From Aquirufa antheringensis (GTDB taxonomy: Bacteria > Bacteroidota > Bacteroidia > Cytophagales > Spirosomataceae), in the NCBI RefSeq assembly GCF_004307425.1, contig NZ_SEWZ01000002.1:4935-68934 (forward strand): 64,000 bases of DNA. Direction: 5' to 3'. Made by a program: the position numbers and the translations under genes. A model generated the notes under the pieces. The model saw only the letters and a program-made list of their open reading frames with translations. It was not told the origin of the DNA and did not search any database. This document shows positions 34,744 to 48,100 of this stretch, piece by piece. Every line of letters starts with the position of its first letter. Position 1 is the stretch's first letter.

Positions 34744-35109
34744 ATGGAATTCGAGCCAGCAATAGTGATAGAAGATTGGGAGATGATTCTCGATTTTTTC
34801 GAAAACTCGTTTGGCAAACGCCCCACTGAAATGGAACCGATCTTGTTATTGATCGGTGTCCAAGAATTAGGTCAGGGTCACGCACACTTTACGAAAGAAC
34901 AAAAGCAAGATCTCCTCCACATCGCCACTTGTAAGGTGCTGAGCTATAGCGATTTTTACCGTTTAGAGGGCTTGGATGAGGAAGGTTGGCCGCATTGGGA
35001 AAATGTCCAAGGAATTCCTTCACTGCCGCTGAAAGAGCAAGAAATCCTATTAAAAGCACACATCATTCATTATTTCAAAACCGAGGTATTCCCGAATGAA
35101 AATAATTAG
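34744..35109 (+). CDS. Conserved hypothetical protein
   Basis: This 121-aa acidic protein is predicted mostly alpha-helical (for example MILDFFENSFGKRPTEMEPILLLIGVQEL). It has no signal peptide or membrane helix. I recognise it only as a type of small protein often found in Bacteroidota, with motif GVQELGQGHAHFTKEQKQDL. The last 14 bases overlap the start of xth, so the two are translationally linked. Function unknown. Confidence 0.75.
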   Translation: MEFEPAIVIEDWEMILDFFENSFGKRPTEMEPILLLIGVQELGQGHAHFTKEQKQDLLHIATCKVLSYSDFYRLEGLDEEGWPHWENVQGIPSLPLKEQEILLKAHIIHYFKTEVFPNENN

Positions 35110-35860
35110 CTATAACGTGAACGGCATTCGTGCCGCGATAACAAAAGGTTTCGTTTCTTGGCTTCAAGAAGAAAATCCAGATATCGTCTGTATTCAAGAA
35201 TTGAAGGCGGAAGTAGAACAAGTGGACTTGAGCGAAATTTTCGCTTTGGGCTATGAGGTTTATTGGCATTCGGCTCAGAAAAAAGGCTATTCTGGTGTAG
35301 CGATTTTTAGTAAAATTAGGCCAAATAACGTGTCAGTGGGTTGCGGTATCGATAAGTACGACTCCGAAGGTCGCGTTTTGCGTGCTGATTACGACGGATT
35401 TTCGGTGATGAGCGTCTACATGCCCTCCGGCTCCAGCGGCGATGAAAGACAAGCCTTCAAAATGAACTGGTTAGGCGATTTTCAAAACTACATTAACGCC
35501 CTCAAGATTGAATTTCCGAATTTAGTCATTGCCGGCGATTACAATATTTGCCACAAAGCGATTGACATTCATAACCCGAAAGGCAACGCGAACAGCTCTG
35601 GTTTCTTGCCGGAAGAACGCGAATGGATGGACGGATTCGTGAGCCGCGGATTTGTGGACTCCTTTAGAGCTATTAACACAGAACCTCACCACTACAGCTG
35701 GTGGTCCTACCGCGCGGGAGCTCGTGGCAAAAACTTGGGCTGGCGAATTGATTACCAGATGGTATCTGAGGCTTTGGCAGAAAAAATCCAACACGCCTCT
35801 ATCCTACCGGATGTCAAACATTCCGACCATTGCCCCATCGTTTTAATTCTTAATTGCTAA
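35096..35860 (+). CDS. xth: Exodeoxyribonuclease III (AP endonuclease)
   Basis: This 254-aa EEP-fold nuclease begins KIISYNVNGIRAA, with metal-binding Glu in CIQELKAE, YSGVAIFSK, the GDYNICHKAIDIHNPK catalytic segment, GWRIDYQM and the terminal SDHCPIV. It nicks at abasic sites and trims 3' ends during base-excision repair. It overlaps the upstream hypothetical gene by 14 bp and is followed 4 bp later by a [2Fe-2S] protein gene. Confidence 0.94.
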   Translation: MKIISYNVNGIRAAITKGFVSWLQEENPDIVCIQELKAEVEQVDLSEIFALGYEVYWHSAQKKGYSGVAIFSKIRPNNVSVGCGIDKYDSEGRVLRADYDGFSVMSVYMPSGSSGDERQAFKMNWLGDFQNYINALKIEFPNLVIAGDYNICHKAIDIHNPKGNANSSGFLPEEREWMDGFVSRGFVDSFRAINTEPHHYSWWSYRAGARGKNLGWRIDYQMVSEALAEKIQHASILPDVKHSDHCPIVLILNC

Positions 35861-35864
35861 TTAT

Positions 35865-36167
35865 ATGCACTTCGAAAAACACGTATTTATCTGCGCTAAC
35901 GACAAAGATGCCCCTAAAAAATGTTGCGGTTCAGGCCACGGAATGGAATTAGTAGACGCTTTCCGCGCGAGCTATGCAGCCCAAGGTGGAACGGCTAAAA
36001 TCCGCGTCCAGAAATCAGGATGCCTTGATTTCTGTGGCAAAGGACCTACGATGGTCGTGTATCCAGAAGGCGTATTCTACGGCAATGTGCAAGTAGCAGA
36101 TGTAGCAGAGATCACAAAATCGCATTTAATCGAAGACGAAATTGTGACTCGCCTCCAAATTCAATAA
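35865..36167 (+). CDS. (2Fe-2S) thioredoxin-like ferredoxin
   Basis: This 100-aa protein has the thioredoxin-like ferredoxin pattern: FICANDKDAPKKCC near residues 8-21 and GCLDFCGKGPTMVVYPEG at 52-69, supplying four cluster cysteines. It resembles the peripheral NuoE-like or sucrase/ferredoxin fold. The electron partner is unknown. The gene sits 4 bp after xth and 8 bp before a RecB-like nuclease in an apparent operon. Confidence 0.86.
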   Translation: MHFEKHVFICANDKDAPKKCCGSGHGMELVDAFRASYAAQGGTAKIRVQKSGCLDFCGKGPTMVVYPEGVFYGNVQVADVAEITKSHLIEDEIVTRLQIQ

Positions 36168-36175
36168 ATTGCAGC

Positions 36176-36799
36176 ATGATTTACCGCTTATATCCCACGC
36201 TTTTAAATTCCTTTAACCTCTATGTGAGCCAATCCCGGGATGGAAATGGCAAAATCATCGTGGATGAAATCGAACTAATCGATCGCATCAACCGCGTGCG
36301 TAAACCTACGACGAATGCACAGCAAAAAGGGATTGATTTTGAGCGAGCGGTGACTTTGGGTGAAAACGAAGAAGCATTTGCGGAGGGAATCATCGATCAA
36401 GCGCGCGAATTATTACCCGCCAAATACAAAACCCAGTTTTACGTAGAATCGCGCTATAAGAACGCGCAAATCTACGGCTACATTGATGGCGTAGGTGATT
36501 CGGTGGCTTTTGACTTAAAAAGTACGGCCTATTACGAGCCGAATCGCTTTTTGACTAACCACCAAAACCTGTATTTATTAGGTCTACAGAAATACGGTAT
36601 TGAGCGCCTAGACTACGTTATTACGGACTTCAAACAGGTGTATGTGGAATCTTACGATGTAAAAAATATCGATTTCAGTTTCCAATACGACCAGATCGAA
36701 AAGTTCATCTTGTTCTTAGAAGAGAACAAGAAATTCATTCGAGACAAGAAGATTTTTGACCGTAAATCGAGCGATAATCAATTATCGATTTTTGAGTAA
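36176..36799 (+). CDS. PD-(D/E)XK (RecB-like) nuclease with C-terminal clamp-type motif
   Basis: This 207-aa protein shows the RecB-like nuclease core: Glu56 in GIDFER, Asp104 in GYIDGV, the D-x-K pair Asp113/Lys115 in AFDLKS, and the QxxxY-like HQNLYLLG starting at residue 129. It ends in NQLSIFE, where QLSIF (202-206) resembles the sliding-clamp-binding consensus QL(S/D)LF. The nuclease fold is inferred from motifs. Genes around it (xth, DEDDh exonuclease, nucleotidase) suggest DNA repair. The 3' end overlaps the convergent HAD gene by 18 bp, including the clamp-like tail. Confidence 0.72.
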   Translation: MIYRLYPTLLNSFNLYVSQSRDGNGKIIVDEIELIDRINRVRKPTTNAQQKGIDFERAVTLGENEEAFAEGIIDQARELLPAKYKTQFYVESRYKNAQIYGYIDGVGDSVAFDLKSTAYYEPNRFLTNHQNLYLLGLQKYGIERLDYVITDFKQVYVESYDVKNIDFSFQYDQIEKFILFLEENKKFIRDKKIFDRKSSDNQLSIFE

Positions 36800-37465
36800 A
36801 CTCCTCAATTCGTCTAAATGCTGGATTTCGTGAGGTAAATCCGTTTCTATCGAAAACGGATTATAATGAATCGCTGGAATTCCCGCGTTCAACGCTCCCC
36901 TGACATCAGCCTCAATGTGATCGCCGATCATTAACGCCTCTCCAGGCTGAATACCTGCGCGTTCTAAAGCATATTCATAAAATAACGGATTCGGTTTCTT
37001 CGTGCCAACTTGCTGCGATGTGATAATCTCCTGAAAAAAGGAGCGCATCCCCGCGCCTTCAATCTTCACGTATTGAATGTCATCGAAGCCATTCGTCAAA
37101 ATATATAAGGGAAAATGGGCTGCTAAATCTTGTATGACTTCAAAGGCGCCAGGCATCAAATTCGTCTTTCGCGGTGCACGTTCGAGGTATTTATCTCCGA
37201 ATTCTCCCGCAGGACCTTCAACACGCAGTTCTTGAAAAAAACGCACAAAGCGCGTTTCCCTTAGTTCCGCCTGCGAGATTTCGCCTGCTGCGTATTGGTC
37301 CCACAAACCATTATTGATTTTTTCAAAGGTCGCCCAGTAGCTTAAGGGCTCAATGGCCAGCTCGTATTCAACGGCTAAATCAAGTAAAACTTCTTTGGCA
37401 TTTAAGTCGTGATCCCACAGCGTGTGATCCCAGTCAAAAAAAAGTGCTTTCGGGCTAAAATTCAT
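36782..37465 (-). CDS. HAD-superfamily phosphatase, YjjG type
   Basis: This 227-aa HAD hydrolase has motif I FFDWDHTLWDHD (residues 9-20), motif II YILTNGF, the lysine motif KKPNPLFYEYAL and motif IV MIGDHIEADVRGA. The DHTLWD start and length point to the YjjG nucleotidase subgroup, which removes non-canonical nucleoside monophosphates. Its ATG is only four bases after a -7 promoter element, so the mRNA is likely leaderless. It converges on the RecB-like nuclease gene. Confidence 0.88.
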   Translation of the reverse strand: MNFSPKALFFDWDHTLWDHDLNAKEVLLDLAVEYELAIEPLSYWATFEKINNGLWDQYAAGEISQAELRETRFVRFFQELRVEGPAGEFGDKYLERAPRKTNLMPGAFEVIQDLAAHFPLYILTNGFDDIQYVKIEGAGMRSFFQEIITSQQVGTKKPNPLFYEYALERAGIQPGEALMIGDHIEADVRGALNAGIPAIHYNPFSIETDLPHEIQHLDELRSLLKNR

Positions 37466-38433: not shown

Positions 38434-38763
38434 ATGCAATCAATACCAGAAATTATCCGTACGATTCCATTAACCCATTACATTATGCTGAGCTCAGCTT
38501 TGTTTTGCATTGGTATTTTGGGCGTATTAACACGTAGAAATGCGATCATCGTATTTATGGCGATCGAATTAATGTTAAATGCCGTTAACTTATTGTTAGC
38601 TGCCTTTTCTTCCTACTATTCTGACCCAGCCGGTCAAATTTTCGTTTTCTTCATTATGGCCGTGGCCGCAGCAGAAGTGGCTGTTGGTTTAGCGATTATC
38701 GTGATGATTTACCGAAATATCCAAAGCATCGATATCGGTGTTCTTAACAAATTGAAAAACTAA
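38434..38763 (+). CDS. nuoK: NADH-quinone oxidoreductase subunit K
   Basis: This 109-aa, three-helix protein has the NuoK pattern: [24 protein letters not shown], then the membrane glutamates in [13 protein letters not shown] and [12 protein letters not shown] start at ATG 38434; an upstream TTG adds six residues without family support. A -7-like TATTTTTG lies at 38364-38371. It begins a nuoK-L-M-N-gtrA operon; nuoJ and earlier genes are not upstream. Confidence 0.95.
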
Positions 38764-38789
38764 TTAAGCGCAAATTCCGCCCAATTAAT

Positions 38790-40673
38790 ATGTCTTTACT
38801 ATTCCTCATTCCACTATTACCCTTAGTAGGCTTTGCTATTAATGGGTTAGCGTACCCGAAATTACCGAAGCAAATCGCGGGAATCATTGGAACCATTCCT
38901 CCCTTGGTTGCCTTCGCTTTATCACTTCAGTTATTCTTGAATTTTGACGGTCAGGCACAAATTCTTCCCATCGCGGATTGGATTAAGGTAGGTTCTCTCG
39001 AGATTCCTTTTGCCTTCCAAATCGATCAATTATCGATCTTAATGCTCCTCGTCATCACGGGAGTGGGCACCTTGATTCACGTGTATTCGATTGGGTATAT
39101 GTCCCACGATGCGGGTTTTGGTAAGTTTTTTGCCTTCTTGAACCTGTTCGTGTTCTTTATGTTAATCCTCGTTTTAGGGGCCAACTTCACAGTCTTGTTC
39201 ATCGGTTGGGAGGGCGTAGGTTTATGCTCTTATCTACTGATCGGGTTTTGGAACCAGAAGAATTCTTACGGAGATGCAGCGCGTAAGGCCTTTATTATGA
39301 ACCGTATTGGTGATTTAGGGTTCTTAGTAGGGATCTTTTTATTGATCCAGGATTTCGGAACAACCGATTACCAGACGATTTTCACTGCCATCCAAAGTGG
39401 CGATTATACGACAGATTTAAGCATCATCGCTTTCTGTTTATTCATCGGTGCGATGGGTAAATCAGCACAAATTCCTTTGTTTACTTGGCTTCCAGATGCG
39501 ATGGCGGGTCCTACGCCAGTTTCGGCTTTGATTCACGCGGCGACGATGGTGACGGCGGGTATTTACATGGTGATTCGTGCGAATGCCTTGTTTGAATTAA
39601 GCCCAGAAGTATTGCATTTTGTGGGTTGGATTGGTTTAGCAACGGCCTTATTAGGCGCTGCGATTGGTCTTTTCCAAAACGATATCAAAAAAGTCCTTGC
39701 TTATTCTACGGTATCCCAGTTAGGCTACATGTTTATGGGCTTAGGCGCTTCAGCGTATACGGCGTCGTTCTTCCACGTGATGACACACGCGTTCTTTAAG
39801 GCCCTTCTTTTCTTAGGCGCTGGTTCTGTGATTCACGCGATGTCAGACGAACAAGATATTCGCCGTATGGGTGGATTGAAATCGAAGATGCCTATCACGT
39901 TCATTACGTTTATGTTAGGAACGATTGCGATTGCGGGTATTCCTCCTTTCGCGGGTTTCTTCTCGAAAGATGAAATCTTAGCGAGCCTATACCACCACGA
40001 TCCAGTGATGTGGGGTTTAGCGATTGTGGGGGCTGCTTTGACCTCTTTCTATATGTTCCGTGTATTCATTTTGACTTTCTACGGAGAGTTCAGAGGAACG
40101 GAAAAACAAGCGCATCATTTACATGAATCGCCTATCACGATGACCTTACCGTTGATTATTTTAGCGGTATTTTCTGTGGGTGGCGGTTTAATCAACTTAC
40201 CTCACTTCGCGGGAGGAAATGAATTCTTAGCGCATTGGTTAGCGCCCTTATTGCCAGAAGCTGGAGAAGCGGGAGAAGTCAACTTCTTGAGTTTAGAAGG
40301 TGGTGCCCCATTATTAGCAGCCTTCTTGCCAGCCTTCTTAGCGATCTACGTTTTTGGGATGCAGAAATCAGTACCATCAGAAGACACGGAGATTTCAGGT
40401 ATCCAAAAGGTCATCTACCACAAATTCTACATCGACGAATTATACGATATGCTGTTTGTTAAGCCTATCGCTTTCTTATCGAACTTCTTCTTCCAAGTGA
40501 TCGACTTCTTAGTGATCGACTTGTTTGTGGAGGGCTTAGGACGTTTTGTAAAATACGCTTCGAGCGAGTTCCGCAGAGCCCAAACAGGAAACGTAGGCAT
40601 CTACCTATTCTGCATGGTCGCGGCCATCGTTGTCATCTTATTTGTTAGTTTAAAAAGTACGATCCTTCCATAA
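38790..40673 (+). CDS. nuoL: NADH-quinone oxidoreductase subunit L
   Basis: This 627-aa antiporter-like complex I subunit has about 16 membrane helices, the QLSILMLLVITGVGTLIHVYS region, GWEGVGLCSYLLIGFW, MGKSAQIPLFTWLPDAMAGPTPVSALIHAATMVTAG and FLGAGSVIHAM. It pumps protons and ends in the long lateral helix region. It lies 26 bp after nuoK and 18 bp before nuoM. Confidence 0.97.
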   Translation: MSLLFLIPLLPLVGFAINGLAYPKLPKQIAGIIGTIPPLVAFALSLQLFLNFDGQAQILPIADWIKVGSLEIPFAFQIDQLSILMLLVITGVGTLIHVYSIGYMSHDAGFGKFFAFLNLFVFFMLILVLGANFTVLFIGWEGVGLCSYLLIGFWNQKNSYGDAARKAFIMNRIGDLGFLVGIFLLIQDFGTTDYQTIFTAIQSGDYTTDLSIIAFCLFIGAMGKSAQIPLFTWLPDAMAGPTPVSALIHAATMVTAGIYMVIRANALFELSPEVLHFVGWIGLATALLGAAIGLFQNDIKKVLAYSTVSQLGYMFMGLGASAYTASFFHVMTHAFFKALLFLGAGSVIHAMSDEQDIRRMGGLKSKMPITFITFMLGTIAIAGIPPFAGFFSKDEILASLYHHDPVMWGLAIVGAALTSFYMFRVFILTFYGEFRGTEKQAHHLHESPITMTLPLIILAVFSVGGGLINLPHFAGGNEFLAHWLAPLLPEAGEAGEVNFLSLEGGAPLLAAFLPAFLAIYVFGMQKSVPSEDTEISGIQKVIYHKFYIDELYDMLFVKPIAFLSNFFFQVIDFLVIDLFVEGLGRFVKYASSEFRRAQTGNVGIYLFCMVAAIVVILFVSLKSTILP

Positions 40674-40691
40674 TCCGATCGCAACATAGCT

Positions 40692-42137
40692 ATGTATCTA
40701 CTATTTATACTTTTATTTCCGCTTTTGATTGGGTCAGCTTTGTTGATCTTCAAGCCAAAGAACGCGTTCGCTATTTCTCTAGCGGCCTCCATTATTGAAT
40801 TAGCGGCCACCGCCTTTGTTCTACAAGAAGCTAGCCTTAACCCTGTTTCCTTTTCTGCTCCTTGGGTAGCGGAAGCGGGTTTATCCTTTTCCCTGTATGT
40901 GGATGGAATCAGCGGCGTTTTAATCGGACTTTGTGCCTTGTTAGTTCCGTTCATCGTAGCAACAACAGCGAATACGGATCGTGCAAACAACTCCCAATTC
41001 CAGGGTTTGATGTTAGCGATGCAAACGGCTTTAATGGGAGCGTTCTTAGCGAAAGATGCGTTCTTGTTTTACTTCTTCTTCGAAGCGTCGTTATTACCGA
41101 TCTATTTCTTAGCAGCGATTTATGGCGGCGAGAACAAGAATGCGATTACGTTTAAGTTCTTTGTATATACCTTGTTTGGGTCTTTATTCTTCTTAATCGC
41201 TTTAGTATATGTGTATTTACAAACACCTGGCGAGTTTCACTCAGCGGATATGGAGGTATTGTATCAAACAGCAAAAGGCTTAAGCGCTGACCAACAAGGG
41301 TATTTATTTGCGGCCTTCTTCTTGGCATTTGCCATCAAGATGCCTGTTTTCCCGTTCCACACGTGGCAACCGGATACCTATACCGTGGCTCCTGCACAAG
41401 GAACAATGTTATTATCGGGTATCATGTTGAAGATGGGTACGTACGGAGTAATTCGTTTGGTCTTACCAATGTTCCCATTAGGAGTAGCGACATGGGGCTT
41501 AACGGCATCCATCTTATCAGTAATCGGCGTGATTTACGGTTCGATTATCGCTATCCAACAAAAAGACGCGAAACGCTTATTAGCCTATTCTTCCTTTGCG
41601 CACGTGGGCTTGATGTCTGCCGGTATTTTATCGGGAAGCATTGAAGGTATTCAAGGCGCCTTGTACCAAATGTTATCGCACGGTATCAACATCATCGGTT
41701 TATTCTTCGTGATTGAGATTATTGAGCGCAGAACAAAATCCAGAGAAATCGCTCAGTTAGGCGGTATCACGCAATTCTCGTATCCTTTGACGGTCACTTT
41801 TGTGATCTTGAGTTTAGGTTCGGTGGCGTTACCATTAACGAATGGTTTCATCGGGGAATTCTTGTTATTAAAGAGTGTATTTGACCAAAACTTGACCCTA
41901 GGCATCATCGCTGGGATCACCATCATCTTAGGTGCGGTGTATACGTTGCGTTTGATTCAGAAATCGATGTTCGGAAATGTGTCACGCATCACGGCTGATT
42001 TTGCAGACTTAACGTTTGCAGAGAAAGCGGTGTTAATTCCGTTGAGCGCCTTGGTTATTCTAGGCGGAATTTTCCCATCGACAGTTTTAGGTTTTAGTGA
42101 GCCAGCGGTTCAGCAATTAATCCAATGGTTCAAATAA
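40692..42137 (+). CDS. nuoM: NADH-quinone oxidoreductase subunit M
   Basis: This 481-aa proton-pumping subunit has FYFFFEASLLPIYFLAAIYGG, FAIKMPVFPFHTWQPDTYTVAPAQGTMLLSGIMLKMGTYG and the SFAHVGLMSAGI segment, with about 14 helices. The membrane Glu (FEAS) and Lys (IKMP) of the channel are present. It follows nuoL by 18 bp. Confidence 0.97.
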   Translation: MYLLFILLFPLLIGSALLIFKPKNAFAISLAASIIELAATAFVLQEASLNPVSFSAPWVAEAGLSFSLYVDGISGVLIGLCALLVPFIVATTANTDRANNSQFQGLMLAMQTALMGAFLAKDAFLFYFFFEASLLPIYFLAAIYGGENKNAITFKFFVYTLFGSLFFLIALVYVYLQTPGEFHSADMEVLYQTAKGLSADQQGYLFAAFFLAFAIKMPVFPFHTWQPDTYTVAPAQGTMLLSGIMLKMGTYGVIRLVLPMFPLGVATWGLTASILSVIGVIYGSIIAIQQKDAKRLLAYSSFAHVGLMSAGILSGSIEGIQGALYQMLSHGINIIGLFFVIEIIERRTKSREIAQLGGITQFSYPLTVTFVILSLGSVALPLTNGFIGEFLLLKSVFDQNLTLGIIAGITIILGAVYTLRLIQKSMFGNVSRITADFADLTFAEKAVLIPLSALVILGGIFPSTVLGFSEPAVQQLIQWFK

Positions 42138-42156
42138 AATAGTATTAAAAAGCATT

Positions 42157-43554
42157 ATGACGGCTATCATTGCATTATCACTTCTAGGTATTTTAAATTT
42201 ATTTTTGGGCTTTTGGCTTTCGAGAAAAACCATCCAAGCGGCAACGCTTTTGTTCTTAGCGGGCAGTATGGCTTTGACGGCTATGGATTGGAACCACGAA
42301 ATGTTATGGTATGGACATATGTTCCACACCACGAATACTTCCATCAGCTTCAGCTTAATCATTCAATTAGCAGCCTTTATGGTGGTTAGTTTTTCCAAAG
42401 GCTTTGGCATCGACGAAGAGCACACGCATCCAGCAGAATACTACGCGATTCTATTGTTCTCGGTTGTGGGAGCTATTTTAATGGTTTCATTCGACCACTT
42501 GATTATGTTCTTTGTGGGTTTAGAAATCCTTTCCGTTGCGATGTATGTGTTAACAGGTTCAGACAAGCGTAATTTGCGTTCGAACGAGGCGGCCTTGAAA
42601 TACTTCTTAATGGGTTCTTTCGCAACAGGTATTTTACTGTTCGGAATTACCTTAGTATACGGTGCAACGCGCTCATTCTACCTGGTTAATATCGCTCAAG
42701 CCATCGCGAATACACCACCAGAATCAACCCCAGTGTTTTTATCAATTGGGGTATTATTGATTTTAGTCGGTTTCTTATTTAAGATTTCAGCAGCACCATT
42801 CCACTTCTGGACTCCAGATGTGTACGAAGGAGCGCCTACTATCTTTACGATGTTTATGTCGACGGTAGTAAAAGCAGCCAGTTTTGCGGCCTTGTACCAA
42901 TTACTTTCGGGGCCGTTTGGCACCATGTACGGAACGTGGGTATACCCTATATACTACATCAGCATGTTGACGCTTTTAGTCGGAAACATCACAGCGGTGT
43001 ACCAACAATCAGCGAAGCGTATGTTAGCTTATTCGAGTATTTCACACGCGGGGTATATGTTGTTAACGGTGAGCGCGAATCAAGCGAGTACGCCATCTAC
43101 CATCTTGTATTATTCATTATCCTATACCTTAGCGACCATCGTGGCCTTCGGTGTGGTAATGTTAGTCGCGGAATACCAAACAGGGCGCACCGAGAAACCA
43201 GAGAACTTCAGTTCGTTTGAAGGTTTAGCCAAACAAAATCCAGGTTTAGCCTTCTGCTTTACCATCGCCTTATTGTCTTTAGCGGGGATTCCGTTGACGG
43301 CAGGTTTTTGGGGTAAATTCTTCGTCTTCTCTGACATCTTTAATCGCCACGTATACTATCCTGTGATCTTAGCGATTGTGATGTCTGCAGTAGGGGTTTA
43401 TTATTATTTCAAAGGAATCATTGCGATCTACTTTAAAGAAGGAGATATCGAGCGTATCGAGTTACCTGGTTTAGTGAAGTTTGCGATGTGGGCTTGTACG
43501 CTAGGTACCTTGTTATTAGGCGTATATCCAAGCATCGTTAAAAACCTCTTTTAA
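42157..43554 (+). CDS. nuoN: NADH-quinone oxidoreductase subunit N
   Basis: This 465-aa subunit has FFVGLEILSVAMYVLTG, SNEAALKYFLMGSFATG, FKISAAPFHFWTPDVYEGAPT and the AGIPLTAGFWGKFFVF C-terminal segment, all standard for NuoN. It completes the three antiporter-like subunits of complex I. The gtrA-like gene follows 9 bp later in the same operon. Confidence 0.97.
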   Translation: MTAIIALSLLGILNLFLGFWLSRKTIQAATLLFLAGSMALTAMDWNHEMLWYGHMFHTTNTSISFSLIIQLAAFMVVSFSKGFGIDEEHTHPAEYYAILLFSVVGAILMVSFDHLIMFFVGLEILSVAMYVLTGSDKRNLRSNEAALKYFLMGSFATGILLFGITLVYGATRSFYLVNIAQAIANTPPESTPVFLSIGVLLILVGFLFKISAAPFHFWTPDVYEGAPTIFTMFMSTVVKAASFAALYQLLSGPFGTMYGTWVYPIYYISMLTLLVGNITAVYQQSAKRMLAYSSISHAGYMLLTVSANQASTPSTILYYSLSYTLATIVAFGVVMLVAEYQTGRTEKPENFSSFEGLAKQNPGLAFCFTIALLSLAGIPLTAGFWGKFFVFSDIFNRHVYYPVILAIVMSAVGVYYYFKGIIAIYFKEGDIERIELPGLVKFAMWACTLGTLLLGVYPSIVKNLF

Positions 43555-45107: not shown

Positions 45108-48100
45108 CATTGTAGTAGGCTTACTGACGGTAGCATCAGCGGCACTTGCCCAAAATTCTATCCTATCCAGTGGCCAATGGCTCAAAGTAGGCATCACCCA
45201 ATCTGGTATCTACCAAATCACCCCAGCCTGGCTTTCCTCCCTCGGGTTAAAAGCAAGTTCGATCGGAGTCTACGGACACGAAATAGGTGAATTGCCCCAA
45301 GCCAACTCCGCAACTAGACCCATCGATTTACAGCCGATTTCCTTCCTGAAACAAGGAGATAAAATCTTGTTTTATGGAGAGAAATTTACCCATCACTACA
45401 GCGATACTACTTTCTATTTCATCCGTTTAAATGATCCAGCGCCTAAAGCCATAACAGACCTTCCGTCAGCTACCGCTAATACAACGGCTTTAGATTATGG
45501 CTATAGTCGTTTTCACTATGAGCCAGAAACGTACAATCTATTACAATCAGGTCGAGAATGGCTGGGTGATGGATTTTTTGGCAATGTAAACCGAACGATT
45601 CAATATCCTTTAGCAGATTACAAAATAGGGATTCCAAGCTTACTATCTGGCAGGTTAGCCTCCTCCTCCATTGCTCCAGGGACTTTCACCTTCAGCATTC
45701 CGGGAAATAGCCTTCCTCCCCTTACCTTTCCAGCGACCACCGGCGGACGTTATGACCAAAAAGCCTTTTTACAGACCTTCTCCGCTTCTGTAAAACCAGA
45801 GATTAAGGACCAAAGCTGGACCTGGAATCTAGCCTATAGCAATACTACCGGCTCTGGCTACATCGATTACATTGACCTTCATTATCCTCGAAAATTCAAT
45901 GCGACGAACGAGAATCCGCATTATTTTTTACCCAACAAAACCGATTCTACTTTCAGCATCAGCATTCAAAACCGCCAAGCCAATCACCTCGTTTGGGTCA
46001 AGTTCACAGGCAAGAGCTGGCAAAATGTAAATTCCCTCGTATTTAACAAGGTCACTCCAGGGGCTGAGCTGTTGATTTTTGATTCGGCAAAAGCGGCGGA
46101 TCCGAAAACGGGAGAAGTCATAGCAAACCAAAACATTCGAGCAGACACTCCCGCCGATTTACTCATCCTTTCTAGCCCTTCGATCCTTCCTGCTGCAAAA
46201 CTGCTAGCGTCCTATAAAGGTGCGAAGGGAATTGCTGCAAAAGCCTATTCCACAAAAGAAATCTACCACGAATTCTCAGCCGGGAAACAAGATGTGACGG
46301 CGATACGCGATTTCATCCGCCTAAAAAAACCTCGCTATGTATTATTTTTAGGCGATGCGACAGTGGATTACAAAGGAATCAACAAGGTGGCTTCGGCCGT
46401 CGAAAGACAGAATTATGTCCCGAGTTATGAAAGTCGCGAGTCCTTGCAACCTTTGCAGACCTATGTGTCTGATGATTATTTTGGGCTAATCGCAGATAAC
46501 CAAGGCGAATGGCTAGAGGGAAATGAGGCGGTGAATGAACCGCTGGCGGTAGGCATCGGACGTATCCCAGCAAAGTCAATCGAAGAGGCAAATACGGTGG
46601 TTAATAAACTAATCAGTTACGAGACGCGCACTCAGCAGCAACCCTACCGCTTCGCTTGGTTTGCGGATGACGGCGATGCAAATATCCACGTGCAAGATGC
46701 AGAAGATTTCGCGCGCTTGGTTCCGGAGGCGTATCAAGTCCAAAAAACCTACCTCGACCAATTTCCTCAAGAAGTGGCGAATGGATTTTATACCTCAGCC
46801 GCCGCCCAAAAAGCCAGTTTAGCCCTATTTAACCGGGAAGCCGATTTTATCCATTTTCTAGGTCACGGATCTGAATCCGCCTGGACGGATGAGAAGGTAA
46901 TCACGACTAACGAGCTACAAACACTGAAAAATAGTCGAAATTTACCCCTCTTGTTAACGGCGACATGCCAGTTTGGTCGTTTTGACGACCCGAATCAGCT
47001 ATCTGGAGCAGAAATAAGCCTTTTATCCAACCAGGGCGGTGCCATGGGTCTCATCTCGACGACGCGACCCGTGTTCCAGAGTAGTAATTACTTGTTTGGC
47101 CAAGCATTTTATAGACAGTTAGCTAATCATCTAACAGATAAAAATTACCGACTTGGTGATTTGTTTAAAGACGCGAAGAATGATAGCCAATCTGGAGTGA
47201 TTAATCGCAACATCACCCTGCTAGGCGATCCCACCTTAGCGTTACTTTGGAATCAACAGGCTCTTACAATCCGACTAGATACCTTGACTTCCGGAATCAT
47301 TCAAGGACAAACGACTCCCAGTATTGATGGAGAAATTCGTTTGTATTATTTTGGAGAAGACAAGCCTATGCAGACTTTGGGGACAAAAACAGATAAATTC
47401 AGCTATGTAAAATCCGGTGATTTAGAGGCCATCAACAGCGCTAAGGTCGAAAAAGGCAAATTCACTTTGGCGAACTTACCAGCCGCGAGATTAAAATGGA
47501 CCGCGCGAACAACGACGGAAACGTATGGCGGAGGAATGAAGAGCGTGGTGAAATCTACCTCAGAGGAAAAAGAAGTGAACGCCCCTATACTAACAGCGAG
47601 CCTATTAAATGAGTCTGACCCGCTAGCTAGCTCCGCTAATCCGATCTTACAAATTAAAATCAGCGACGCGAGTTCTTTACGACTTGTGGGACCTAAGGGC
47701 GAAAAAGCCCAAATTTCCATCAACGACACCTTGGAAATTCCCTTCTCTGATGTATTTACCCCCGAGCCAGGAAACAGTAGAAAAGGCAGCATTACCTTCC
47801 CTTTTGAATCACTCGCTCCGGGACTCTATAAAATCAAGGCAAATGTGTTCGACGTACATACGAATCAAGGATTTTGTTCGTTTGAATTCCGAGTTTCAGA
47901 AAACACAAAAGAGTCAGGTTCGCTCCGAATTTATCCGAATCCAATGACCGAGCGAACCAGCTTTTCGTTTTTACAAGAGAAACGCTGGACGAGCTATCGT
48001 TACAAGCTAAAAATTTATAGTAACTTAGGGATACGATTGCTCGAAAGGACGGGAGTGATTCCGGGAAGCGATTCGGTGAATCAGACTTTCTCGATCGATT

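Follow-up and report, generated by a model that had tools for sequence, protein, structure and literature searches.

A predicted single-domain PD-(D/E)XK nuclease with a clamp-binding-type C-terminal tail and phage relatives in one family of Bacteroidota

The window, by which we mean the whole stretch of 64,000 nucleotides that was analysed, comes from a genome of 2.5 Mb that belongs with Aquirufa, a genus placed by the NCBI taxonomy in Flectobacillaceae (Cytophagales, Bacteroidota). A tightly packed run of genes in the same orientation contains the nuclease considered here: the xth-type gene at its head is separated by 4 nt from a gene for a small [2Fe-2S]-type protein, and this gene by 8 nt from the nuclease gene. 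The features needed for what follows are given below, with residue counts taken from alignment A1 (35 cellular rows) and alignment A2 (23 viral rows).

35096 to 35860, plus strand: xth-type exonuclease/AP endonuclease family gene (PF03372, 9.8e-28), at the head of the gene run
35865 to 36167, plus strand: small [2Fe-2S]-type protein directly upstream of the nuclease, all Pfam matches under the curated cut-offs
36176 to 36799, plus strand: PD-(D/E)XK nuclease gene, 207 aa, stop codon at 36797-36799 included, assigned from homologues and predicted fold
36341 to 36343, plus strand: Glu56, the helix glutamate of the active-site set, in 35/35 cellular rows and replaced by Asn in 22/23 viral rows
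36485 to 36487, plus strand: Asp104, in 35/35 cellular and 23/23 viral rows
36512 to 36520, plus strand: Asp113-x-Lys115, core of the PD-(D/E)XK site, in 35/35 cellular and 23/23 viral rows
36563 to 36574, plus strand: Gln130-x-x-Tyr133, which we take to be a RecB-family-like Gln/Tyr motif; in 35/35 cellular and 23/23 viral rows
36770 to 36796, plus strand: predicted disordered C-terminal tail, residues 199-207, the only residues with pLDDT below 50
36779 to 36793, plus strand: Q202-L-S-I-F206, clamp-binding-type motif, recognised from sequence and conservation in orthologues
36782 to 37465, minus strand: HAD hydrolase gene (open reading frame list and Pfam), convergent with the nuclease gene and overlapping its 3' end by 18 nt

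An initial annotation had described this open reading frame, and when it was re-read its coordinates, length and C-terminus (QLSIF-E) were all as given there; the protein ends in DNQLSIFE (Q202 to E207). The neighbours named at that time need some adjustment. The xth gene and a DEDDh/ExoX-like exonuclease are present as described, the [2Fe-2S] protein is identified by sub-cut-off Pfam matches only, and what was called a nucleotidase can be described more generally as a HAD-type hydrolase. The xth gene keeps its upstream order in 7 of the 22 loci compared, and this order is not conserved beyond the nearest genera; the [2Fe-2S] gene adjoins the nuclease in 10 of the 22. The upstream xth gene fits a repair setting. 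Genes judged by eye to encode NADH dehydrogenase-type subunits lie downstream of the nuclease region (38434-43554 of the window). Most of the gene order in this region, with the [2Fe-2S], HAD and exonuclease neighbours, is kept in Pseudarcicella (L168) and is not kept in Arcicella and Flectobacillus.

The active-site residues proposed earlier (Glu56, Asp104, Asp113/Lys115 and Gln130) are identical in all 35 cellular rows, and 21 of the 23 viral rows have a glutamate one column after the position of Glu56. A nuclease fold, the absence of which would have spoken against the initial annotation, was obtained in an AlphaFold2 model built from a 58-row alignment (mean pLDDT 93.0, pTM 0.85, most of the protein above 90): the predicted fold is PD-(D/E)XK of the RecB/RecE-like kind. 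Human MGME1 is the best structural match among PDB entries (Z 12.0, 3.3 Å over 165 residues), with E. coli RecE (Z 11.7, 3.6 Å over 167), Cas4 in Cas4/Cas1/Cas2 and the putative phage-type exonuclease 3l0a (both Z 11.5), AdnA (Z 10.7), LHK-Exo (Z 9.7), Dna2 (Z 9.1) and lambda exonuclease (Z 8.7) also matching. Rai1/DXO enzymes, which have the same class of fold, are among the matches as well. Foldseek searches of solved structures gave E-values from 2e-4 with modest TM-scores of about 0.35-0.5, and the top row from a viral structure library was 'Exodeoxyribonuclease 8' (1.5e-8). Residues 1-190 of the model superpose on single nuclease domains, and there is no separate N-terminal DNA-binding domain. 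With a D...DxK core and a Gln/Tyr helix, the predicted structure assigns the 207-aa protein to the PD-(D/E)XK RecB/RecE/Cas4-like superfamily.

Among the sequences of solved structures, a single-sequence search returned one irrelevant weak match (a TRAP transporter subunit, E 0.012) and a profile search none. NCBIfam and PADLOC searches with the nuclease gave no match, and Pfam gave none over 1 save PF17633 (DUF5514), whose score of 19 bits is under the cut-off of 27. Cysteine is absent from the window protein and from the invariant columns; hence the protein is not an Fe-S Cas4. Also present in the cell are two PDDEXK_1 loci (one strong, the other weak), which probably represent an AddAB-type enzyme, so the nuclease would add to such an enzyme and not replace it.

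By single-sequence search the nuclease occurs in 132 of the 150 family genomes and in 31 of 36 genera, nearly always in one copy. The other 18 genomes gave no match by single sequence or by profile; 11 of these are the sampled members of one genus (g48), all of which are without the nuclease by both methods. The profile made from the 35 rows of A1 matched 22 of 192 genomes in a sample of the order (21 from the same family and one fragment with three stops) and four of 296 in a sample of the phylum, three of them again from the same family. The fourth, G569, has two copies of the nuclease and will be met again below.

The initial annotation placed a clamp-type motif on a free C-terminal tail, and the motif does lie on the predicted disordered residues 199-207. 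Conservation of QL(S/D)xF, proposed there as a check, is found in the nearest clade (48/48). Tail-less homologues, named there as counter-evidence, do exist in part of the family: they are 29 deduplicated rows from Dyadobacter, Runella and others and all the viral and prophage rows (40/40). Eighty loci were kept from the genome_contigs set, and every complete orthologue among them with at least 54% identity (48/48) ends in Q[LM]S[LIM]F followed by no residue or by one. Loci L133-L181 make up this identity class; the 49th, L177, ends at a contig edge and is not counted. The 48 come from Aquirufa, Sandaracinomonas, Arcicella, Pseudarcicella, Flectobacillus and metagenome-assembled genomes (MAGs), with one record titled Cellulophaga. 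The tail motif is absent from the 31 loci with at most 48% identity (Dyadobacter, Persicitalea, Telluribacter, Rhabdobacter, Arundinibacter, Runella and a MAG). The pattern Q[LM][SDN][LIM]F(x) was used to select the 48 loci; it takes in all complete loci with at least 54% identity, and because of this selection the variants at motif positions 2 and 4 are limited. Position 3 is serine in 48/48 though the pattern allows S, D and N. Isoleucine at position 4, as in the window protein, is found in nine of the 48. The seven linker positions ahead of the motif vary.

How often such an end arises by chance can be judged from two backgrounds. At the orthologue loci, 47 of 927 distinct open reading frames (starting with ATG, at least 100 aa, spurious frames and the nucleases included) end in Q-hydrophobic-x-hydrophobic-F(x), and 46 of these are the nucleases themselves, which as orthologues are not independent. 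In the cell's own genome there are 90 distinct DNA matches to Q-hydrophobic-x-hydrophobic-F-(0/1 residue)-stop, and only four have at least 60 open codons upstream. Two of the four are real genes, namely that of the nuclease and that of a gyrase/topoisomerase IV A subunit with EQLGLF at its C-terminus; the remaining two (76 and 77 open codons) are probably spurious.

Farther out in the family the C-termini are more varied. Among 103 complete cellular rows, 50 have an end of the QLSLF type, nine Q-x-[S/D]-L-F, nine other LF ends and 35 none; the underlying 104 rows are a chosen set of nearest relatives and family genus representatives, so that the tally is no frequency. Two of the 35 deserve mention: L089, which ends in GLFENF, was relabelled as LF for the tree, and L077 is a second copy linked to a Sak4 gene. 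Seven rows from other genera end in QTSLF. Twelve rows that form a divergent branch (median pairwise identity 0.52) have LF within the last six residues, as QPDLFG (twice), GGLFG/A, LNLFD and others, compared with a background of 15 in 632 open reading frames of at least 150 aa. LF alone is reported to be able to bind the clamp (PMC11139829), and for this reason such ends could act as weak clamp motifs, although we offer this as a guess from sequence.

A quick tree, built without the tails from 65 deduplicated cellular and 31 viral or prophage rows and supported by SH-aLRT only, sorts these types into groups. All 18 QLSLF rows fall together (99) and are joined with the QTSLF rows (98); the 29 tail-less cellular rows form another (97), and the 12-row LF branch has a support of 85. 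Presence and absence of the tail need two changes on this tree, which can be read as a single gain in the cellular ancestor with a single loss, or as two separate gains. L077 and the viral L213 pair on the cellular side on long branches (84), and this join may be false.

The genome has one DnaN (PF02767, 374 aa), identical to that of E. coli K-12 at 110 of 354 aligned residues. The review PMC11139829 lists 18 residues of the clamp pocket, and ten are the same here (R152, T172, G174, H175, R176, L177, P242, N320, M362 and P363); L155M, V360L and M364V are mild changes, and R246N, V247A, Y323L, V344N and R365M are not. The same review gives the motif rule as Q-aliphatic-x-[L/M]-[F/L] and notes that the Gln is missing from the delta subunit. 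Orthologues with QLSLF, QMSLF or QLSMF obey the rule so stated, and QLSIF of the window departs from it at position 4 (Ile instead of L/M). Similar motifs are known in UmuC (QLNLF) and at the end of E. coli Pol II (QLGLF), according to PMC3716654; both proteins are polymerases, which the present protein is not. The cell's own DinB has EQLNLFDD after its little-finger domain. Since the tail is conserved, DinB of the same cell has QLNLF and 10/18 of the DnaN pocket is kept, the nuclease tail is very likely, as far as sequence can tell, of the beta-clamp-binding type.

Two of these genes call for a remark in their own right. The dinB gene with the internal QLNLF (L352, G000:C5 around 46190-46513) adjoins an S24/LexA-like and a DnaE-like open reading frame, by eye, and together they are likely a damage-response cassette. 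The gyrase/topoisomerase IV A subunit (PF00521, 906 aa; L364:1353-4070, minus strand, on G000:C4) ends in GEQLGLF, like the motif of E. coli Pol II, and given this end the possibility of a topoisomerase that binds the clamp deserves attention.

Beyond its bacterial family the relatives of the nuclease are phage nucleases. It matches PHROG 35319, a family listed without function, with E 1.2e-12 over residues 87-195; five viral nucleases tested against the same family gave 1e-71 to 1e-96, except L213 with 6.6e-16. A profile search of IMG/VR gave 37 viral loci (L213-L249), of which 36 hold a relative of Sak4 in the stretch covered, three of the 36 being the loci from which the Sak4 queries were taken and some contigs being near-copies. 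The gene directly upstream of the viral nuclease matches phrog_124, 'Sak4-like ssDNA annealing protein', in nine of ten cases scanned, with SSB and NinB families coming next at some loci. Bacteroides phage BS-TP2 and Faecalibacterium phage Taranis have the same order of Sak4 and nuclease by deposited annotation. The BS-TP2 protein (L250, 7983-8813) is annotated as an HNH endonuclease, yet it aligns with the PD-(D/E)XK family. In G569 each of the two nuclease copies has Sak4 next door, and none of the 80 cellular nuclease loci has a Sak4 relative, some of the flanks being short. The clamp tail, in turn, is found in 0/40 viral and prophage rows; L251, from a Faecalibacterium phage, was excluded from these as too distant and is also tail-less. 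PHROG 35319 is thus a family of PD-(D/E)XK nucleases, and likely the nuclease half of a recombination pair with Sak4.

The phage nucleases are homologous to the cellular one (D104, D113, K115, Q130 and Y133 are identical) and differ from it in being mostly 240-290 aa with an insert, in having Sak4 as a neighbour and in ending straight after an ITDKKIF-like stretch without a clamp tail. One genome, G135, has beside its cellular copy a second nuclease that is short (193 aa), tail-less and Sak4-linked (L361:4823-5401, plus strand); this copy and the viral L213 may be close to the donor form. We infer a direction from phage to cell because the cellular spread is narrow and the viral spread wide, and judging by sequence it seems that a recombination nuclease of phage origin has settled as a permanent gene in one bacterial family. 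The genome of the window contains, unlinked to the nuclease and near a contig end, an AAA_24 ATPase that matches phrog_124 (E 7.9e-13; G000:C4:466677-467258, L355) and is missed by all three Sak4 queries at 1e-4. It is perhaps from an integrated element, and its presence leaves it doubtful whether the cell has lost a partner of the Sak4 type.

Other systems provide partial parallels. To our knowledge no clamp tail exists in RecE, lambda exonuclease or LHK-Exo, which resemble the nuclease in fold and in the recombination-module setting of its phage relatives; they are without a significant sequence match to it among solved structures. MGME1 and Dna2 are likewise similar in structure, but they are eukaryotic, show 12-14% identity in the structural alignments and are recruited by other means. 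In mtDNA maintenance MGME1 trims single-stranded DNA and flaps (PMC9460513). The initial annotation knew of no small clamp-recruited repair nuclease, and here a precedent exists. NucS/EndoMS of Archaea and Actinobacteria is a small nuclease with RecB-like active-site motifs that in Actinobacteria has a clamp motif, [E/K]-[L/Y]-[T/R]-L-F, at its extreme C-terminus, the clamp being the bacterial DnaN (PMC8228993). We regard it as the closest known analogue, of a different family. NucS consists of an N-terminal DNA-binding and dimerisation domain and a C-terminal catalytic domain, whereas the nuclease here has a single domain, is found in one Bacteroidota family and has phage relatives. NucS_C (PF01939) has no match in the whole genome of the window, while 7/14 control genomes were positive; profile and domain plan together rule out membership in NucS. 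In the open-access literature we found NucS papers and clamp reviews only, and no clamp-bound nuclease of the present kind.

Several other explanations may be considered. The last 18 nt of the gene are shared with the convergent HAD gene, and some relatives have an overlap of 4 to 22 nt, so that QLSIF-E might be a by-product of the overlap or mere chance. This is extremely improbable. In relatives the distance from the nuclease to the next open reading frame lies anywhere between -22 and +267 nt without any loss of the tail; QLSLF is also retained in L173 and L176, where unrelated genes lie downstream. The codons, moreover, vary where the residue does not: across the 48 orthologues the tail serine is encoded by TCG, TCC, TCT, TCA and AGT, from both serine boxes, and the leucine at position 2 by five of its six codons. 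Antisense overlap as the cause of the tail is ruled out by its persistence across these gaps. A tail that is real might bind something other than DnaN. Free C-terminal hydrophobic tips serve other partners too, those of SSB being an example, and a pocket of the SSB type or of a recombination mediator could be imagined. We think this improbable: the sequence fits the type of the clamp rule quoted above, the cell's own DinB has QLNLF, and the nuclease has no acidic-PF tip of the kind seen in NDYPPF of a phage SSB (PMC5928155).

Nor does it seem at all probable that the protein acts as a mismatch endonuclease in the manner of NucS/EndoMS. Small size, RecB-like motifs and a C-terminal clamp-type motif are common to both (PMC8228993), but the genome gives no PF01939 match, the 207-aa model is without a separate N-terminal DNA-binding domain, and the relatives are phage recombination nucleases. 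Less remote, although we still consider it unlikely, is a clamp motif that is genuine and serves regulation or competition. The nuclease would then be an SOS-like accessory that is tethered when there is damage and not otherwise, and its main job would lie elsewhere, for example in degrading foreign or broken linear DNA. In the 29-row sister clade the nuclease persists although the tail is absent, so that whatever retains the gene does not depend on recruitment by the clamp, and the phage form taken as ancestral acts next to an annealase. Against such a limited role is the strict conservation of the motif within the clade that bears it.

The explanation that we favour, and hold to be probable, is a clamp-tethered, single-domain PD-(D/E)XK nuclease of phage descent that processes ends or flaps. 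The gene product would be a Mg-type DNA nuclease, similar to RecE, MGME1 and Cas4, and most likely one that attacks DNA ends or single-stranded flaps as an exonuclease. With the last nine residues flexible, QLSIF would dock into the DnaN pocket and bring the nuclease to clamps that stay on the DNA at replication forks or in their wake. Phage recombination nucleases with a Sak4-type annealase gene next to them would be the ancestors of the family; the cellular lineage would have lost its Sak4 neighbour, and two of its three branches would carry the clamp motif or an LF remnant. The nuclease activity and clamp binding that we infer would serve an end or flap job in replication-linked repair. By analogy, since the fold is nearest to MGME1, RecE and Dna2, we think that the enzyme trims DNA ends or flaps at sites that clamps mark as newly synthesised.

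A more ambitious and tentative suggestion, to which we give somewhat less than even credence, is that the ancestor of this Bacteroidota family took up a phage recombination exonuclease once, freed it from Sak4 and rewired it to the clamp by adding a tail. The result would be a clamp-activated end and flap nuclease of the replication fork, a counterpart in its job of MGME1, Dna2 and FEN1 and unrelated to NucS, and some descendants would have lost the tail later.

If correct, this would describe a route by which a cell can make a viral recombination enzyme replication-linked, a tail of five residues exchanging the phage annealase for the host clamp. It would also add to the bacterial clamp clients a second, independent RecB-like nuclease besides NucS, and would provide a likely function for PHROG 35319, which is listed as unknown. 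The tail-bearing and tail-less sister clades would amount to a natural experiment on what clamp recruitment adds.
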